From Croceibacterium sp. (lineage in GTDB: Bacteria; Pseudomonadota; Alphaproteobacteria; Sphingomonadales; Sphingomonadaceae), in assembly GCA_025450635.1 (NCBI GenBank), contig JANWHA010000002.1:1-60016 (forward strand): a stretch of DNA of 60,016 bases, read 5' to 3'. This document shows positions 3,245 to 53,763 of this stretch, piece after piece. The notes beneath the pieces were generated by a model. That model ran no database searches. It was not told the DNA's origin and saw only the letters and a program-made list of their open reading frames with translations. Each line of letters starts with the position of its first letter. Position 1 is the first letter of the stretch. The position numbers and the translations under genes are program-made.

Positions 3245-4366
3245 TCACTGGCCGAGCAACTCCGCGATCCTCCCGGCGCTTCGGCCGTCGCCGAACGGAT
3301 TGTGCGCGCGGGCCATGGCGGCATAGGCGGCTTCGTCGTCGAGCAGCCGCTCGGTCTCGGCGACAATCAGGTCGGCGTCGGTTCCGACGAGCTTGGCCGT
3401 GCCGGCGGCGACACCCTCCGGGCGCTCGGTCGCTTCGCGCATCACCAGCACCGGCTTGCCGAGCGCCGGCGCTTCTTCCTGCACCCCTCCGCTGTCGGTC
3501 AGCATCAGCGCGCAGATCCCCAGCAGGCGGGCGAAGTGGGGGTAATCCAGCGGCTCGATCAGCGCGACGTTGTCGAGTCCGCCGAGCCGCTCAGTCATCA
3601 CCGAGCGCACGTTCGGATTGAGGTGGACCGGGAAGATCATCGCCACGTCACCGCGCGTGGCCAGGCGCCGAATCGCCTCCGCGATGGCTTCCATTCCCGG
3701 TCCGAAGTTTTCGCGCCGGTGGCTGGTGATACCGACGATGCGCTTGCCGGCAAAGCGTCCCTCAAGCTCGGCGAGCCCGGCGGCCAGTTCGGGACGTTCG
3801 GCGATCCGGGCGGTGATCCAGTGCAGGGCGTCGATCACCGTGTTGCCGGTGACGTGGATCGTGCCGGGGGCAACGTTTTCGCGCCGCAATGCCTCGGCGG
3901 CGGTCTCTGTCGGCGCGCAATGGAGCCTGGCGATGGTGCCGATGACCTTCCGGTTGACTTCCTCGGGCCAAGGATGGTGGATGTTGCCGCTTCGCAGCCC
4001 GGCCTCGACGTGAGCGACGGGGATCTTGCGGTAATAGGCGGCGATGGCGGCGGTCATCGCGGTGGCGGTGTCGCCCTGCACGACGACCCAGTCAGGCTTC
4101 TCCTCGTCCATCACTTGGCCGAGGCCGGTGAGAAGGCCGGCCGTGAGCGCATCGAGCGTCTGGTCGGGCTGCATCAGGTCGAGGTCGTGATCGGGCGTGA
4201 TGCCGGCGATCGCGAGGACCTGGTCGAGCATCGCCCGGTGCTGGGCACTGACGCACACTCGGCTGTCGAACCGCTCGTCCGCTTCAAGCGCGTGGACGAG
4301 CGGGAACAGCTTGATCGCTTCCGGGCGAGTGCCGAAGACGGTCAGGATGCGCTTGCGGCCGCTCAT
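3245..4366 (-). CDS. wecB: UDP-N-acetylglucosamine 2-epimerase (non-hydrolysing)
   Basis: 373 aa, full length for the WecB/MnaA family, GT-B-like fold. It interconverts UDP-GlcNAc and UDP-ManNAc in the cytoplasm. Hallmarks are VFGTRPEAIKLFPLV at the N-terminus, VQGDTATAM, HVEAGLRSGN, the P-WPEEVNR-like stretch, TGNTVIDAL, TSHRRENFG and LTDSGGVQEEAPALGKPVLVMR with ERPEGV. The ATG start is the first in frame. Its product feeds WecC encoded nearby. It is read toward the 4-epimerase gene from the opposite strand, with almost no space for a terminator. Confidence 0.93.
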   Translation of the reverse strand: MSGRKRILTVFGTRPEAIKLFPLVHALEADERFDSRVCVSAQHRAMLDQVLAIAGITPDHDLDLMQPDQTLDALTAGLLTGLGQVMDEEKPDWVVVQGDTATAMTAAIAAYYRKIPVAHVEAGLRSGNIHHPWPEEVNRKVIGTIARLHCAPTETAAEALRRENVAPGTIHVTGNTVIDALHWITARIAERPELAAGLAELEGRFAGKRIVGITSHRRENFGPGMEAIAEAIRRLATRGDVAMIFPVHLNPNVRSVMTERLGGLDNVALIEPLDYPHFARLLGICALMLTDSGGVQEEAPALGKPVLVMREATERPEGVAAGTAKLVGTDADLIVAETERLLDDEAAYAAMARAHNPFGDGRSAGRIAELLGQ

Positions 4367-46954: not shown

Positions 46955-49669
46955 TCAGGGCGAACCGCCGGCCGGCGGGCCGATCCGGAGCGCGGCCACC
47001 TGACTCGCGCGCAAGCGAATCACGCCGAGTTCGGCATCGGTCTTTTCCTCTGACAGAGAGGCGGTCTTGCCGGTATCGCCAGCGGCGCCGAGCGCCCGGG
47101 CGCTGGCTGCCGAGAGGCGCACGCTGTAGTGGCCGTAGGGCACCCGCTCGAACAGGAAGTACCCGTCGTACTCTGTGAGGGTGGTCGAAACGACCTTGCC
47201 GTTCTGGTCGAGCAGTTCAAGGTCAACGCCGGCACTCGGCGTATCTTCGATGCTGTGCAACTCGCCCTCGATCTCGCCCGTGGGCGCGACGCCGATCTCG
47301 AGCTTGGCCGGGGCGCCCGGGCGCGGCGTCACCACGACACCGTTGTTGATTGGCACCAGGAATGGGTCAGGCAGCGTGGATTCGTCGATCCCGATGACCA
47401 CTTTCTCGTAGGGATTGAGGTCTTCGACCACGGCGTGGCCCTTCTTGTCCGTCGGACTGGACGAGCCATACTGCCCGGCGGTTATGCCGACACCCGCGAG
47501 CGCCTCTTCGCCAGGCGAGCGGACGCCGTCGCCATTCTTGTCAAGATAGACGGAGACCGCGGCCTCCCCACGCTCGGCGAGCTTGTTGTTCGAGAACCGC
47601 ACCCCGTGCCCGAACGGATCGGGGCTGAAGCTGAAGGTCAGCCCCAGGTTGGCGCCTATTCCGCCATGGGTGTCGGCGGTGGCCCCGACCGTGAGCGCCA
47701 GCCTGCGGAACTCGCGGACGTAAGCGGCCTGGAAGGTGGTCAGTTTACGCAGCGCCTCGTATTGGGCATCGACACGCAAGTCCGACCGGTCGGTGAGGGT
47801 CTTCTCGACGGTCAACTGCGCGTTGTCCAAACCTGTGCGCCGGCCGCTGAGGCGATAGCTTGCGCTCCCTCTAAGCGACAGGCCAAGAAAGTGGGTGTTG
47901 GCGAGCATCGCGATGCTCGTGCCTTCATCGTCGAGCGAACCGCCGGATACGCTCTTGTTGGTGATTGCGGCCGTCAGCGAAAGGCGCGGGAAGATGATCG
48001 ACGCCCGCGCTAACCATTCGTTAACCATTTGCCCGTCGGTGCGAACGGTTCGCTTGAATCCGAGAGCCACCGGCACCACGCGGCGACCCGAGCCGAGGAC
48101 ATCCTCGATCTCGAGGTTCTGTTCGGAGCGCTCCCCGTCCGGCACCTCACCGCTGGCGAAGCTGCCGTCGAGGAAGAAGCCCTCCGCGGTGATGTTGAGC
48201 TTGCCGATTCGGCCCAGCGCGGTGGCTCGGTAGGCGCGACCCGCGCCGAATTCCTGCGACGCGGTGAGGTCGAACAGCACCGGCCCGAGCGCCCTCTGGA
48301 CGTCGAGCTCGCCATAATTGCGTTGCCGGCCTTCGTAGACCAGCGATTCCGCGGTCGCCCCCAGGACTGTCCGGTCGTCGAGGCCATATTGGGTTCCAAA
48401 CCCGTATTGCCAGCCGCCGTCGAGCGCACTGGGTGGGCCATGAAAGTCGATCAAATCGTGGTTCCGCTGGATGATGCCGGCCCAATACTCGAGCTTGCCG
48501 GGCGCCACGGCGCCATAGCCGACCGGAATCGTCTGCTTTTCACGCCGGACCTGCCCTTGCGGTCCATAGAGAACGACTTCGAGATTGTTGTCGCCGTACA
48601 CCAGGTCGACATCGAACTGGTAGCGCCCGTCAGGCGTGTCGCTCTGGAAGGCCAGCAGCTGCCCGTTGCGGTAGAGCTCGGCGTCCCAACCGAGCGGCAG
48701 CGCGCCGCGCAGGACGGTCTTGCCGAAACTGCTCGAACGGTTGAGCGGGCGGTTGCTGATGAAGGCCCCTCGGCCGATCCCGTCGGCGGCGGCGAGGTTG
48801 CCGGGATAGAGCTCGACATCGCCGACCGCCGCCTGAGTGGCCTTGAGCGGCCCCAGCATGTGTCCCTCTGGATCGTTGCGGAAGGCCCGCACGCGAAGCG
48901 TATCCGGAGCGCCCTGCGAATCGGACGCCAACCGCGCATCGACGCTCGCTCCGGCGACCTCGCCGCTGGCGTAGACCTGGTAGCGGGCGTTGAGCCCGCT
49001 GCCACTGGCGCCGTTGCCGCGCGCGAACCCGAAGTCGACGATCGCATCCACCGACGGTGTCCGCCACGCGCGGTAAGGAACGTTCATGTGGGGAAGATCC
49101 GCCAGATTGAACGTTTTCTGGCCCTGAAGTCGCGCCGCACGACTTTTGCGCTCGATCGCCTCCATGAATGGCAGCGGCTTCTCGCTGTCGAGCTGGAGCA
49201 CGGATTCGTAGAGATTGGGTGTCAGGCTCGCCCCGAGCCAGCTGGCGAGGCTTTTCGTGTCGATGCACCAGCCTTCCGGCGTATCATAAATCTCGCCGGC
49301 CTTGATCGGGCGCTCATTGTTCACGATTTGTACCGTATTTTTCTCGCGGTCGAGGGTGAAGGTCTGGTCCTCCGCGAAAAGCCAACCAGTTGCGCGGCGC
49401 GACTTCTTGTCCAGTCGCACCGGCAGATCGAGGGCCAGGATAATGTCGCCGAAATCGACGCACACACCGCCGTTCGCGAGCTGGTAGCCGCGCAACTCGT
49501 TGTGCATGCGGTATTTCTTCACCTGCAGCTGGAGGATAACCTGGTCGTCTTCGGTTGGCGCCTTGACGCCGCCCGACTGCGCGATGGCCGTTCCGCCAGC
49601 TCCCAGCGCGAGAAAGGCCGCCGCGGCAAGCGCGACGGCCTTGCGGCCGAAATTCTGGAACGGCGACAT
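46955..49669 (-). CDS. fimbrial usher-like outer membrane protein with C-terminal carboxypeptidase-regulatory/SD-repeat-like domains
   Basis: 904 aa with signal peptide (ending GGTAIAQS). The N-domain (about 40-180) has two similar half-motifs around GGVCVDFG and GWCIDTKS. The middle (about 215-690) alternates barrel-like strands; a plug-like portion is DAELYRNGQLLAFQSDTPDGRYQFDVDL. The C-terminus carries a calcium-type repeat VSVYLDKNGDGVRSPGEEALAGV and a carboxypeptidase-regulatory-like fold (GEIEGELHSIEDTPSAGVDLELLDQNGKVV). It lies 31 nt after the chaperone gene. This fits a divergent TcfC/alternative-type usher. Subunit secretion is inferred from context. Confidence 0.75.
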   Translation of the reverse strand: MSPFQNFGRKAVALAAAAFLALGAGGTAIAQSGGVKAPTEDDQVILQLQVKKYRMHNELRGYQLANGGVCVDFGDIILALDLPVRLDKKSRRATGWLFAEDQTFTLDREKNTVQIVNNERPIKAGEIYDTPEGWCIDTKSLASWLGASLTPNLYESVLQLDSEKPLPFMEAIERKSRAARLQGQKTFNLADLPHMNVPYRAWRTPSVDAIVDFGFARGNGASGSGLNARYQVYASGEVAGASVDARLASDSQGAPDTLRVRAFRNDPEGHMLGPLKATQAAVGDVELYPGNLAAADGIGRGAFISNRPLNRSSSFGKTVLRGALPLGWDAELYRNGQLLAFQSDTPDGRYQFDVDLVYGDNNLEVVLYGPQGQVRREKQTIPVGYGAVAPGKLEYWAGIIQRNHDLIDFHGPPSALDGGWQYGFGTQYGLDDRTVLGATAESLVYEGRQRNYGELDVQRALGPVLFDLTASQEFGAGRAYRATALGRIGKLNITAEGFFLDGSFASGEVPDGERSEQNLEIEDVLGSGRRVVPVALGFKRTVRTDGQMVNEWLARASIIFPRLSLTAAITNKSVSGGSLDDEGTSIAMLANTHFLGLSLRGSASYRLSGRRTGLDNAQLTVEKTLTDRSDLRVDAQYEALRKLTTFQAAYVREFRRLALTVGATADTHGGIGANLGLTFSFSPDPFGHGVRFSNNKLAERGEAAVSVYLDKNGDGVRSPGEEALAGVGITAGQYGSSSPTDKKGHAVVEDLNPYEKVVIGIDESTLPDPFLVPINNGVVVTPRPGAPAKLEIGVAPTGEIEGELHSIEDTPSAGVDLELLDQNGKVVSTTLTEYDGYFLFERVPYGHYSVRLSAASARALGAAGDTGKTASLSEEKTDAELGVIRLRASQVAALRIGPPAGGSP

Positions 49670-49700
49670 GATTGCCGGCTCAGGCTGCTATCCGCGAGAC

Positions 49701-50543
49701 CTAGCCGAGCACCGTGTCGATGGAGGCGATCAGCGCGGCGCCGTTTTCGTTTGGCTCACGATATTCGACGCGGACGGGGCCTTTCATGGCCGCTTCCTGC
49801 TGTGGCGTAATCCCAAACGAGGCATGGCGAAGGTTGATTTCCGGGTAGACGCCGATGCCTCGGGCGATGAACACCGGGTCCTTGGCTCCCCTGGGATAGA
49901 CCAGCAGATCGCCATAGACAGATTCGGTGCCGGAGCGGCTCATGTCGACCTCGAACTCGTCTCCCTTTGGGCTGTGCACGATGTGCGGATTGGCCAACGC
50001 GGCCTTCACGGTCAGCTCGCCCTTGCGCACGATGATCGGCATCACGATGCCGTAGATCGGGATCAGGTTGATCGAGATGCCATTCGAGCCTGCCGGCGCC
50101 TCGGCGACCGGATGGACCTTGGGCAGGGCGGCAAAAGCCATGTGCACTCGGTACTCACCATCGGGCAGGTCAGCGCCCGGGCGAACACTGATCCGAATCG
50201 ACTGCGGCTGTGAGGGCGGCAGCGTGACGCGCCGGGGAGCGTAGCGGATAATGTCGAGGGCGGCCTTTTCGGTCGCATTCGCGTCTGCTTCCGCGACCGG
50301 GTCCAGGTCGCCATCTGCATTCATTCGCCGCAACTCGAGCGTGATCCGATAGGTTTCGGCCTCGTTGCCCGTGTTCGAGAGGATGACCTCGCCTCCGCGA
50401 CGCCCGTCGAGCACCAGGCGCGTCGGGGCGATCAGCAGGTTGCCCTGAGCGGCTCCGGCGCCAGGCGTCAGCAGCGCAGCGGCCGCCAATCCGGCAACCG
50501 CTATCTTGGAAATGGTCTGAAAAGACATGCCCTTGCGGCGCAT
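49701..50543 (-). CDS. PapD-like periplasmic fimbrial chaperone
   Basis: 280 aa with signal peptide (ISKIAVAGLAAAALLTPGAGA). Immunoglobulin-like domain 1 begins NLLIAPTRLVLDGRRGGEVILSNTGNEAETYRITLELRRM and contains IIRYAPRRVTLPPSQPQSIRISVRPGADLPDGEYRVHMAF, the subunit-capping G1 strand region of PapD-type chaperones. Domain 2 follows to the C-terminus. ATG 50543 has AGGGGA at about 9 nt; ATG 50528 is an alternative. It lies between the DUF4402 subunit and the usher, all on the minus strand. Confidence 0.82.
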   Translation of the reverse strand: MRRKGMSFQTISKIAVAGLAAAALLTPGAGAAQGNLLIAPTRLVLDGRRGGEVILSNTGNEAETYRITLELRRMNADGDLDPVAEADANATEKAALDIIRYAPRRVTLPPSQPQSIRISVRPGADLPDGEYRVHMAFAALPKVHPVAEAPAGSNGISINLIPIYGIVMPIIVRKGELTVKAALANPHIVHSPKGDEFEVDMSRSGTESVYGDLLVYPRGAKDPVFIARGIGVYPEINLRHASFGITPQQEAAMKGPVRVEYREPNENGAALIASIDTVLG

Positions 50544-50650
50544 GATGCGGTTCCCCTTCCCTGGCCTTCCCCCTTATGGAAAAGCGCGTAGTCGTTATCA
50601 GTGGGTTAGGAGATCTCGGTTAATTCGGCGTAAACCGTGCAAGGCAGGGC

Positions 50651-50687
50651 CCAAAAGAAACGCCCCCGCGCCGGTGGCGCAGGGGCG
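50651..50687 (-). terminator. intrinsic terminator between DUF4402 subunit and chaperone genes
   Basis: On the minus strand the stem is CGCCCC-T-GCGCC / GGCGC-G-GGGGCG (one mismatched pair) with a 3-nt loop, followed directly by TTTCTTTTGG. It lies 43 nt after the subunit stop and about 110 nt before the chaperone ATG. It would reduce read-through so that the subunit is made in excess. Confidence 0.8.
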
Positions 50688-50729
50688 GAGGCCGATGGCC
50701 GCGGCGCATGGAGCGCCGGGCCTGGTCGA

Positions 50730-51248
50730 TCAATTGTAGGCGACGTTGACAGTCAGCGTGCCGGTGTAGTTGCCGGCCGGCTGGCTGGCGCCCACGGCAA
50801 GCGATCCGCCCACGGTGAACGAAGCCGTGCCGGTGCCGCTAAGCGTGGCGGTGTCGGCGGTCAGGCTGGTCTTGAACGCGCTCGCGGTCATCGTGTCGCT
50901 GGCGGCGTCCGTCAGCGTCTCCGAAGCGTTGTTGAAGCGCACGTACACGGTCGCGTTGTTGGCGCCGACGATGTTGAAGGTCGGGGCGTTGGTCGTACCG
51001 CTGCAAACCAGCGAAGCCGGGCACGTGCGCGAACCGTCGGGCGCAACAACCACGCTCGCGGCGCTGGCGCCGGGGGCGATGGTGGCAAAGTCGAGAGTGT
51101 TGTCCGCTGGATCCACAGCAACCGACAGCGCGCTGAGAATGGTGGCCGAAACGTTGGCCGAATCCTGCGTCGCGGCTTGCGCACCCGACGCGATGCCGAA
51201 CGAAGCCACGACGGCTCCCACGGCAGCGTAACGAAGAAGTTTGCTCAT
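50730..51248 (-). CDS. DUF4402-domain exported protein, candidate pilin subunit
   Basis: 172 aa from ATG 51248 with GGAAGGG upstream. The signal peptide (KLLRYAAVGAVVASFGIASGAQA) is followed by a Thr/Ser/Ala-rich beta fold: ATILSALSVAVDPADNTLDFATIAPG, a RTCPASLVCSG cysteine pair (C-x5-C), and the C-terminal strand GNYTGTLTVNVAYN, the typical DUF4402 end. Such proteins are predicted surface or fimbrial subunits. The C-terminal alternating strand could be the part capped by the chaperone. It is the first gene of the chaperone-usher locus. Confidence 0.78.
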   Translation of the reverse strand: MSKLLRYAAVGAVVASFGIASGAQAATQDSANVSATILSALSVAVDPADNTLDFATIAPGASAASVVVAPDGSRTCPASLVCSGTTNAPTFNIVGANNATVYVRFNNASETLTDAASDTMTASAFKTSLTADTATLSGTGTASFTVGGSLAVGASQPAGNYTGTLTVNVAYN

Positions 51249-51422: not shown

Positions 51423-52364
51423 TCAAATGGATGCGCCGGTGAGACGCTGGCAAATCAAATCGAGCTGGTCGAGCGTTCGATAACGAATCGTCACCGCGCC
51501 GGAGCGCGGATCGGCATCGGTAGCGATTCGCACGCTGAGCCCGAGGAACTCTTCGAGATGGTTCTGGACCGCGGCGATGTCGGCATCCGGGGGCGAATCC
51601 TGCGGCGCCCGCGCCTGGCGCCGACCGGTCCCGGCCTTGTCGCGCCGAACCAGCTTCTCGACTTCGCGGACCGAAAGTCCCTCGGCCGCAACTCGATCGG
51701 CCAGCGCGCACGCCTCGGGATGCCCGATCAGCGCGCGCGCGTGGCCCATGTCGAGCCGCCCCGCCGAGAGGTGGTCGAGCACCCCCTCGGGCAAGTCCAG
51801 CAGGCGCTGCATGTTGACGACGTGGCTGCGCGACTTGCCGACCAGTTGCGCGACGGTGATCGGCGGGTATTCCTCGCCCAGGCGCTGGAAGGCGCGCGCC
51901 TCCTCCACCGGGTTGAGGTCTTCGCGCTGGATGTTCTCGATCAAGGCGATCGCCGTCACATCGCGTTCTTCAAGCTCGCGGATTATCGCCGGGATTTCAT
52001 GGAGTTGGGCCCTCTGGGCAGCGCGCCAGCGGCGTTCGCCGGCGACTAGCTGGTAGCGCCCTTCCGTCAGCGGGCGCACAATGACCGGCTGGATCACGCC
52101 GCGCCGGGCGATCGACGCGGCCAACTCGTCGAGCGCGGCTTCGTCGAAGTGCCGGCGCGGCTGGTCCGGATGCGGCTCGATCGAGGCTAGCGGCAGGCTC
52201 GCCAGGCCGGCAGCGCGCGGCCCGATGTCGGCAACGGCCCCGGCCACCTGCGCGGGCGTCACCAGCGGTTCCTCCCGGCGCGCCTCGCCGAGCAGCGCGC
52301 CGAGGCCCCTGCCGAGCTTGCGGCGCGGGGCGCCCTTGGCGGCGGTGTCTTCCTGGGCGCTCAT
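51423..52364 (-). CDS. parB: chromosome partitioning protein ParB
   Basis: 313 aa from ATG 52364 (the track's start is 58 codons early, inside parA). The N-terminus KLGRGLGALLG is the ParA-contact and oligomer region. The CTPase/ParB fold has IEPHPDQPRRHFDEAALDELAASI and GERRWRAAQRA (GxxR motif), then QREDLNPVEEA. The HTH is ITVAQLVGKSRSHVVNMQRLLDLP. The C-terminal dimerisation domain contains NHLEEFLGLSVRI. It binds parS and spreads as a CTP clamp. Overlaps parA by ATGA. Confidence 0.96.
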   Translation of the reverse strand: MSAQEDTAAKGAPRRKLGRGLGALLGEARREEPLVTPAQVAGAVADIGPRAAGLASLPLASIEPHPDQPRRHFDEAALDELAASIARRGVIQPVIVRPLTEGRYQLVAGERRWRAAQRAQLHEIPAIIRELEERDVTAIALIENIQREDLNPVEEARAFQRLGEEYPPITVAQLVGKSRSHVVNMQRLLDLPEGVLDHLSAGRLDMGHARALIGHPEACALADRVAAEGLSVREVEKLVRRDKAGTGRRQARAPQDSPPDADIAAVQNHLEEFLGLSVRIATDADPRSGAVTIRYRTLDQLDLICQRLTGASI

Positions 52365-53137
52365 GCGGCCTTCCTTTCCTGTGGCAGGCGGCGGATCAGT
52401 TCGCGCGCCAGGGCCATATAGGCGCGACTGCCGGCGCACGAGGTATCGTAGACCAACGCCGGCAGCCCGTGACTCGGCGCTTCGGACAAACGGACATTGC
52501 GCGGGATGACCGACTCGAACACCAGGTTGCCGAGGCATTCGCGCACGTCGTCGGCGACCTGATCGGTCAGCCGGTTGCGGCGATCGAACATCGTCAGGGC
52601 GATGCCGATGATCCCGAGATCGGCGTTGAAGCGCTCCTGTACGCGCTCAACCGTTTGTAATAGCTGGCTTAATCCTTCAAGCGCGAAGAACTCGCACTGC
52701 AGCGGTACGAGCAGGGTGTCGGCTGCGGTGAGGGCGTTGAGCGTCAGCAGGCCGAGCGACGGCGGGCAGTCGATGAAGCAGATATCGTGACCATGATGCC
52801 CCGACAGCGCGGTGCGCAGCCGTTGAGCCCGGTCTTCTTCGGCGACCAGCTCGAGCTCGGCGCCGCTGAGGTCCACCGTAGCCGGTAGTAGCTCGAGATT
52901 GGGGATAGACGTGGGAAAGGTGCATTCGTCGATCGAGAGCCCTTCGAGCAGCAAATCGTAGCTCGTCTGGGTGCGATGGGCGCTTTTCAGGCCAAGGCCG
53001 GTGGACGCGTTGCCTTGCGGATCGAGATCGAGCAGCAGCGTCTTCCAGCCCGTCGCCGCCATCGCGGTGGCGATGTTGATCGCCGTGGTGGTTTTGCCCA
53101 CCCCACCCTTCTGGTTGGCGATCGCGATCGAGATCAT
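52361..53137 (-). CDS. parA: chromosome partitioning ATPase ParA
   Basis: 258 aa from ATG 53137. It is a deviant-Walker ATPase with SIAIANQKGGVGKTTTAIN at the N-terminus, LLDLDPQGNASTGLG, and DICFIDCPPSLGLLTLNALTAADTLLVPLQCEFFALEGL. The ParA gradient moves ParB-bound origins. The start overlaps the rsmG stop (ATGA) and its own stop overlaps parB (ATGA); together with mnmG these four genes form one coupled string. Confidence 0.97.
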   Translation of the reverse strand: MISIAIANQKGGVGKTTTAINIATAMAATGWKTLLLDLDPQGNASTGLGLKSAHRTQTSYDLLLEGLSIDECTFPTSIPNLELLPATVDLSGAELELVAEEDRAQRLRTALSGHHGHDICFIDCPPSLGLLTLNALTAADTLLVPLQCEFFALEGLSQLLQTVERVQERFNADLGIIGIALTMFDRRNRLTDQVADDVRECLGNLVFESVIPRNVRLSEAPSHGLPALVYDTSCAGSRAYMALARELIRRLPQERKAA

Positions 53138-53763
53138 GCGCTTGCCGGCCGTCCTGTTCCAGTAACTATTCCCGCCTCGGAATCGGTGACCGAGTGTTCC
53201 ACGTGAAACATCCGGGCCGTATGCGGCGGAAGACTCGCCAATTCTTGCACGGCGGACCGCCCTTTCGGCAACAGCCACAAGGTTTCGTGTGTGGAAAAAC
53301 GGGCGGATAGAGCCAGGAGTTTCGCGAGTGGAGCGAATGCGCGCGCGGAGATCACGCCCGCCGCGAAGCTTTCCGCATGTTCCAGTCTTTTACCGACAAC
53401 CCGGCACTTCGGCAGACCGAGCTCGCCCGCTGCGCGAATCAGCCAGTCGACACGCTTCTTGCGCGACTCGACCAGGACGACCTCAAGATCGATCCGCGCA
53501 GCGGCGACGACCAAGCCGGGAAACCCCGCTCCGGTGCCAAGATCGAGCCAGGGCCCCGTTTCACGTGGAACATGTCTTAATAGCTGGGCGCTGTCCGCCA
53601 GATGACGCAGCCAGATCGAACTCTCGCTGGCCTTGGCGATCAGGTTCTGGCGCGCGTTTTCCTCTGCAACCATCGTCGCCAACCGCTCCAGGCGCGCCAT
53701 CCCGGCCGAATCGGTGAGCGTGACGCAGAAGGCGCGTGCGTCGTCCTCGTTCACCAGAGTCAT
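53134..53763 (-). CDS. rsmG: 16S rRNA (guanine527-N7)-methyltransferase
   Basis: 209 aa. SAM-dependent methyltransferase with [44 protein letters not shown], the [13 protein letters not shown] motif and [24 protein letters not shown] upstream. Two parS-like sequences are embedded in its coding region; they encode MFHVEHS near the C-terminus and HVPRET in the middle, a hallmark of in-gene parS. It overlaps mnmG and parA by 4 nt each. Confidence 0.95.
53195..53210. promoter_or_regulatory. parS site 1 (perfect)
   Basis: TGTTCCACGTGAAACA matches the ParB site consensus TGTTnCACGTGAAACA at every position. It lies in the 3' part of rsmG, about 60 nt from parA. Confidence 0.92.
53557..53572. promoter_or_regulatory. 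parS site 2 (one mismatch)
   Basis: CGTTTCACGTGGAACA differs from the consensus (reverse orientation) only at the first base. It lies inside rsmG, 362 nt from site 1. Confidence 0.82.

Follow-up and report, generated by a model that had tools for sequence, protein, structure and literature searches.

Chaperone-usher pathways fall into three published classes, namely the classical one (type 1 pili with FimC/FimD; P pili), the archaic one (Csu pili, SCPU; PMC4654587) and the alternative one (E. coli common pilus EcpA-EcpB-EcpC; TcfC). One proline of the chaperone (Pro59 in CsuC numbering) is invariant across the superfamily (PMC4654587). In archaic and alternative chaperones the C-terminal carboxylate of the subunit is anchored by residues Arg89 and Tyr196 of the CsuC numbering, Arg174 playing a secondary part, whereas classical chaperones rely on two basic residues of domain 1 (PMC4654587). 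Among open-licence publications, we found none on DUF4402 and none on a system of the kind described below in sphingomonads, the one candidate paper being concerned with type IVb pili.

The locus studied here lies in a window of 60,016 nucleotides belonging to contig C2 of a 2.3-Mb Croceibacterium assembly that is 74% complete. An initial annotation had described three genes on the minus strand, for a DUF4402 protein, a chaperone and an usher-like barrel of 904 aa, and had proposed for them a system of chaperone-usher type whose subunit is DUF4402. All three ORFs were found in place, transcribed in the order DUF4402, chaperone, usher (Table 1), with gaps of 186 nt between the subunit and chaperone genes and of 31 nt between the chaperone and usher genes; a later ATG start (MSFQT...) is possible for the chaperone. 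No gene for a tip adhesin, or any other adhesin, nor for a regulator was present at the locus, as the annotation had said. Predicted folds and co-conservation support its general reading, and we put the probability that the locus is a real minimal chaperone-usher pathway at about 85%.

Table 1. Coordinates of the genes, protein segments and hairpin of the three-gene locus within the window.
Feature	Position	Strand	Evidence
DUF4402 exported protein, proposed major fibre subunit, 172 aa	50730..51248	-	PF14352 (Pfam) E 9.6e-27; SCPU profile match
Proposed N-terminal donor-strand segment of the subunit, residues 27-38	51135..51170	-	Alternating hydrophobic pattern; role inferred
C-terminal strand GNYTGTLTVNVAYN of the subunit, residues 159-172, proposed chaperone-bound F strand	50733..50774	-	Alignment with archaic C-terminal strand
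Terminator-like hairpin followed by TTTCTTTT, subunit-chaperone gap	50661..50687	-	12-bp stem, 11 G-C
Periplasmic chaperone, 280 aa, two-domain PapD-like fold	49701..50543	-	AlphaFold2 pLDDT 90; CsuC best match
Outer-membrane usher, 904 aa	46955..49669	-	AlphaFold2 pLDDT 86; FimD/PapC best match
Usher N-terminal domain, about residues 40-165, two similar halves with one Cys each	49175..49552	-	
Usher beta-barrel including plug, about residues 202-684	47618..49066	-	FimD 3ohn match
Plug domain in barrel, about residues 318-392, LPLGWDAELYRNGQLL...VLYGPQGQ	48494..48718	-	Archaic plug profile E 2.1e-6
Usher C-terminal domains 1 and 2, about residues 695-888; domain 2 SdrD_B/CarboxypepD_reg-like	47006..47587	-	

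Co-conservation of the DUF4402 and usher genes had been set beforehand as one of the tests on which the initial annotation would stand or fall, and the annotation withstood it. Among 196 Sphingomonadales genomes the usher occurred in 53, DUF4402 in 53 and both together in 52, counts that are not independent of one another since the genomes are related. The discordant genomes were G083, with one weak DUF4402 match below the family cut-off, and G133, where a divergent DUF4402, detected with a profile built here, adjoins the chaperone. The distribution was patchy over about 20 genera, and one genome of the same genus (G158) lacked both genes. The chaperone gene was directly upstream of the usher gene, and was itself preceded by one to four DUF4402 genes, in nearly all of 40 loci read from Sphingomonadales. 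This conservation of gene order and co-presence (40 loci; 52/196 genomes) indicated that the three-gene set goes beyond a chance order, and the link among the three proteins, earlier drawn from order within one genome, is supported by it. The system had been ascribed to sphingomonads and proved to be wider: the order DUF4402-chaperone-usher was also found in other alphaproteobacterial families, in Sphingopyxis, in Polaromonas (Betaproteobacteria) and in Pseudoalteromonas (Gammaproteobacteria). Strong usher matches (E below 1e-30) were obtained in about 17 of 240 genomes sampled across Alphaproteobacteria. Co-conservation of PF14352 with the usher across this class was patchy, an effect of divergent subunits that escape the Pfam model; with our own profile, such subunits were found beside the chaperone and usher genes in most loci read.

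Structure prediction had been suggested as a further check, and the models of both the chaperone and the usher matched known components of chaperone-usher pathways. The chaperone model did so over its full length, with CsuC of the archaic Csu pili as top match (Foldseek 1.9e-10; VIA-align Z 14.2, rmsd 3.8, 186 residues) and other chaperone-usher chaperones as the next ones. The name PapD-like given to this protein therefore holds for the predicted fold but not for Pfam, where nothing, PapD included, exceeded its cut-off in the window protein (17 of 42 relatives do have a PapD match); sequence searches of the PDB, with single proteins and with profiles, gave weak matches only. In profile-profile comparisons, whose E-values here and below are those of single comparisons, the chaperone family was closer to the archaic set (E 3.1e-11 over 238 columns) than to the classical one (1e-5), and no similarity to alternative (EcpB-type) chaperones was obtained.

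Residues P103, R132, which lies in a YR motif, and Y233 were each present in 41 of the 42 chaperones. After transfer of the CsuC numbering through an archaic relative, P103 aligned to Pro59, so that the predicted two-domain PapD-like fold of this periplasmic chaperone comes with the superfamily proline. Y233 aligned exactly with Tyr196, and R132 corresponds to Arg89 by motif, being two residues out in the profile alignment. The chaperone is thus assigned, by sequence, equivalents of the non-classical carboxylate anchor residues Arg89 and Tyr196. The classical Arg position (R42) was also invariant (42/42) and the classical Lys anchor was found in none of the 42 proteins; this family may combine classical and non-classical anchors.

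The usher model had FimD and PapC as best matches (Foldseek E 1.0e-28). In the VIA comparison, its residues 195-887 aligned with FimD at Z 20.3 (rmsd 8.8, 551 residues) while the next unrelated barrel reached Z 14.9, and the barrel part matched the FimD translocation domain (3ohn) at Z 19.5 (rmsd 5.1, 366 residues), with the plug strands of the model between residues 329 and 383. Given this match, the barrel, an inserted plug and two C-terminal usher domains are present. Domain 1 was similar to its archaic counterpart (profile E 1.9e-5). The carboxypeptidase-regulatory part, at first regarded as an oddity, takes the place of C-terminal domain 2, the SdrD_B match covering residues 809-868 (E 7.1e-11) and the FimD alignment reaching residue 887; EcpC has a weak match of the same family at its C terminus. 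Ushers of a distant clade are longer (1184-1328 aa) and carry C-terminal extensions (L062, L063, L065-L068, L070).

An N-terminal domain is present as well, confidently folded in the model and unmatched in its fold, since the structural alignment begins at residue 195 and the first 190 residues fall outside it. Profile comparison with classical, archaic and alternative usher N domains gave no similarity (E 0.06-0.29), and global alignment to known usher N domains gave nothing. The two halves of the domain resemble each other as after a duplication (E 1.6e-5 over 29 columns), and its two cysteines may give an impression of the pair of the FimD N domain, a likeness that we do not claim. The statement that the usher lacks an obvious canonical N domain was hence partly right, sequence similarity being undetectable although a domain is predicted at that place.

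In Pfam, SdrD_B was the sole match above cut-off in the usher; PF00577 scored 12.2 bits against a cut-off of 27.1, and PapC_N, PapC_C, TcfC and CooC_C were not matched. Two of 34 usher relatives matched TcfC, neither above cut-off (best E 0.07). No NCBIfam model exceeded its own cut-off for any of the three proteins, and PDB sequence searches with the usher, singly or as a profile, matched only the C-terminal SdrD-like domain. RefSeq lists the ushers as "carboxypeptidase regulatory-like domain-containing protein", "SdrD B-like" or "hypothetical protein", and their partners as "DUF4402 domain-containing protein" and as "molecular chaperone" or hypothetical. Such names, and SdrD_B as the only domain above cut-off, would suit an unrelated barrel, a porin or a receptor, that carries adhesin-like C domains and has unrelated neighbours; this reading is already disfavoured by the full-length match to FimD/PapC, which includes the plug and the C domains, and by the co-conservation with chaperone and subunit, and we consider it most improbable.

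The DUF4402 family was similar to archaic SCPU subunits in profile-profile comparison, with E 5.6e-8 when signal peptides were included and 5.5e-6 for the mature part. The score of the mature part (38.4) exceeded the maximum of 30 column-shuffled controls (17.3) and that of the reversed profile (7.4), which points to a distant relationship between DUF4402 and archaic pilus subunits. DUF4402 lacks the cysteine pair that is invariant in archaic pilin domains: 18 of the 41 relatives have no cysteine, and in the window protein another residue stands at the aligned Cys site of archaic subunits. Near the N terminus, positions 33, 35 and 37 were hydrophobic in 78-93% of the 41 relatives and positions 32, 34 and 36 in 5-20%, and this segment aligned with the N-terminal/A-strand region of archaic subunits, the site of the archaic donor strand. 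The C-terminal strand also alternates (165, 167 and 169 hydrophobic in 100%; last-but-one residue Y171 in 38/41) and aligned with strand F, the last one of archaic subunits and the one to which their chaperone binds. The initial annotation had proposed the C-terminal strand as donor. Because the archaic alignment makes the C terminus the last strand and the N terminus the donor region, that assignment was probably reversed, and the donor strand of the subunit more likely sits at the N terminus, with the F strand at the C terminus. This N-terminal pattern and the SCPU profile match fit, at the level of sequence, an incomplete Ig-like subunit with an N-terminal donor. A locus with one subunit and no adhesin could also serve an usher that exports or displays single DUF4402 proteins and polymerises none; the donor-like and F-strand-like ends, the similarity of DUF4402 to SCPU subunits that do polymerise and the multiple subunits carried by relatives make this improbable.

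With regard to the known classes, the signals from hhalign of single sequences against E. coli EcpC, FimD, FimC, EcpB, EcpA and FimA were too weak to be useful, and for this reason family alignments were built. The window usher profile was nearest to the archaic-like set (E 5e-14), then to the classical (4e-11) and last to the alternative one (8e-7); on the same scale, classical and archaic ushers gave 7e-50 and alternative and classical ones 4e-13. A maximum likelihood tree was calculated for 38 ushers (barrel, plug and C domain 1), the archaic reference set being PF00577 matches chosen here from genomes with neighbouring SCPU genes. The clade of the window usher stood apart from the classical, archaic and alternative ones (100/99), and did so again after removal of the longest branches; the exact branching order is uncertain because the deep branches are long and some long branches meet.

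The locus shares with the archaic pathway the chaperone fold, the Arg-Tyr anchor (by motif), the subunit profile and the gene order, and by sequence it is closest to this pathway in chaperone and subunit. It differs in its usher, which falls in a separate clade and below the PF00577 cut-off and has an SdrD_B/CarboxypepD_reg-like C domain 2, in a DUF4402 subunit that does not have the archaic cysteine pair, and in that no gene for an SCPU tip adhesin follows the usher gene. From the alternative pathway, with which it has in common the subunit-chaperone-usher order and the weak CarboxypepD_reg-like match at the C terminus of EcpC, it departs by an usher outside the alternative clade, with neither the TcfC plug nor the CooC_C domain and with the weakest profile similarity, by a chaperone with no EcpB-type similarity and by the absence of an adhesin or second chaperone gene. 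As in classical systems, the usher architecture is that of FimD, its best structural match, and the Arg of the classical anchor is conserved; in contrast with them, the usher has none of PF00577, PapC_N and PapC_C above cut-off, its clade is separate, and the chaperones do not have the Lys anchor.

Since the archaic profiles are the nearest ones for chaperone, subunit and usher alike, and CsuC is the best structural match, the locus could be a divergent member of the archaic (sigma) family that works as described and deserves no name of its own. We find this rather unlikely in view of the split of the usher clade from archaic and classical ushers in two trees, of the similarity between those two classes, far above that of either to the window usher, of the missing cysteine pair, and of an N domain unrecognisable by sequence. 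We lean towards a fourth major lineage of chaperone-usher systems, in which DUF4402 proteins are the pilins and the usher N domain is built in a different way; it would be widespread among Alphaproteobacteria, would occur also in Beta- and Gammaproteobacteria, and goes unrecognised as a pilus system in current domain libraries and in RefSeq. If true, this would add a deep branch to the pathway, give a function to DUF4402, a family called "unknown", and a new name to an outer-membrane protein that is widespread and at present annotated for the C-terminal domain alone. The three-gene set would also be an unusually simple model of usher-driven assembly, in bacteria where such fibres have hardly been studied.

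Most likely, the three genes build a DUF4402 fibre on the surface, following the general route by which E. coli pili are made; we infer the steps as follows. After export of DUF4402, the chaperone would capture it in the periplasm, hold the C-terminal strand and carboxylate of the subunit in the cleft between its own two domains and lend a strand to the incomplete subunit. The usher N domain would gather the chaperone-subunit complexes, displacement of the plug would open the barrel, and subunits would pass out singly as the N-terminal extension of each incoming one displaced the chaperone strand from the previous one. The product would be a thin, probably adhesive fibre on the cell surface, made mostly of a single subunit, which a DUF4402 protein encoded elsewhere may cap or vary.

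A GC-rich 12-bp hairpin followed by a T run lies 42 nt past the stop codon of the subunit gene. A comparable hairpin, though of another sequence, was found in this gap in 20 of 35 loci, compared with 21 of 700 mononucleotide shuffles (about 3%). It is this conservation that gives weight to a terminator, and not the terminator scan of the whole region, which showed no enrichment over shuffles (5 vs. 4.0). In the distant clade the chaperone and usher genes overlap by 4 nt and there is no hairpin. The likely reading is that termination after the subunit gene is partial and leaves more mRNA for the subunit than for the chaperone and usher, so that the subunit would be the product made in greatest amount, in keeping with a major pilin that is over-produced.

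Proteins of 140-165 aa are encoded between the DUF4402 and chaperone genes at four other loci (L069:12084-12581, L072:11394-11879, L074:6063-6491 and L217:3400-3834); in the three sequences read, the C termini are FLAQFN (L072, L074) and PFN (L069). They are possibly a second, unnamed subunit type. The claim that there is no second subunit is true of the locus but not of the genome, which has another DUF4402 gene (G000:C69:18379-18759; L081:10173-10766) beside riboflavin (ribD/ribE-like) genes, nor of relatives, which have two to four beside the chaperone. Orphan DUF4402 genes of relatives occur at other sites, between a nadB/ABC-transporter pair and a tldD-like gene (for example in L082, L084 and L087). 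The orphan proteins may be minor or tip subunits.

The parB/parA genes (51423-53278) follow the DUF4402 gene in the window, a synteny common to 18 of the Sphingomonadales loci read and missing in others. We rejected parAB as a functional partner, as the adjacency is absent from many loci; covering only part of the family, the neighbourhood is probably not functional. The same organism has a separate alternative-type chaperone-usher operon (G000:C65:1-4331, locus L152), in which two ORFs resemble subunits, one (3639-4331) resembles a chaperone, and the usher matches the TcfC domain at 1909-2106. In Polaromonas, a complete DUF4402-chaperone-usher set is carried by the 65-kb plasmid pE5SP1 (L214:2291-7556), beside an IS6 transposase and an integrase, which suggests transfer between classes.
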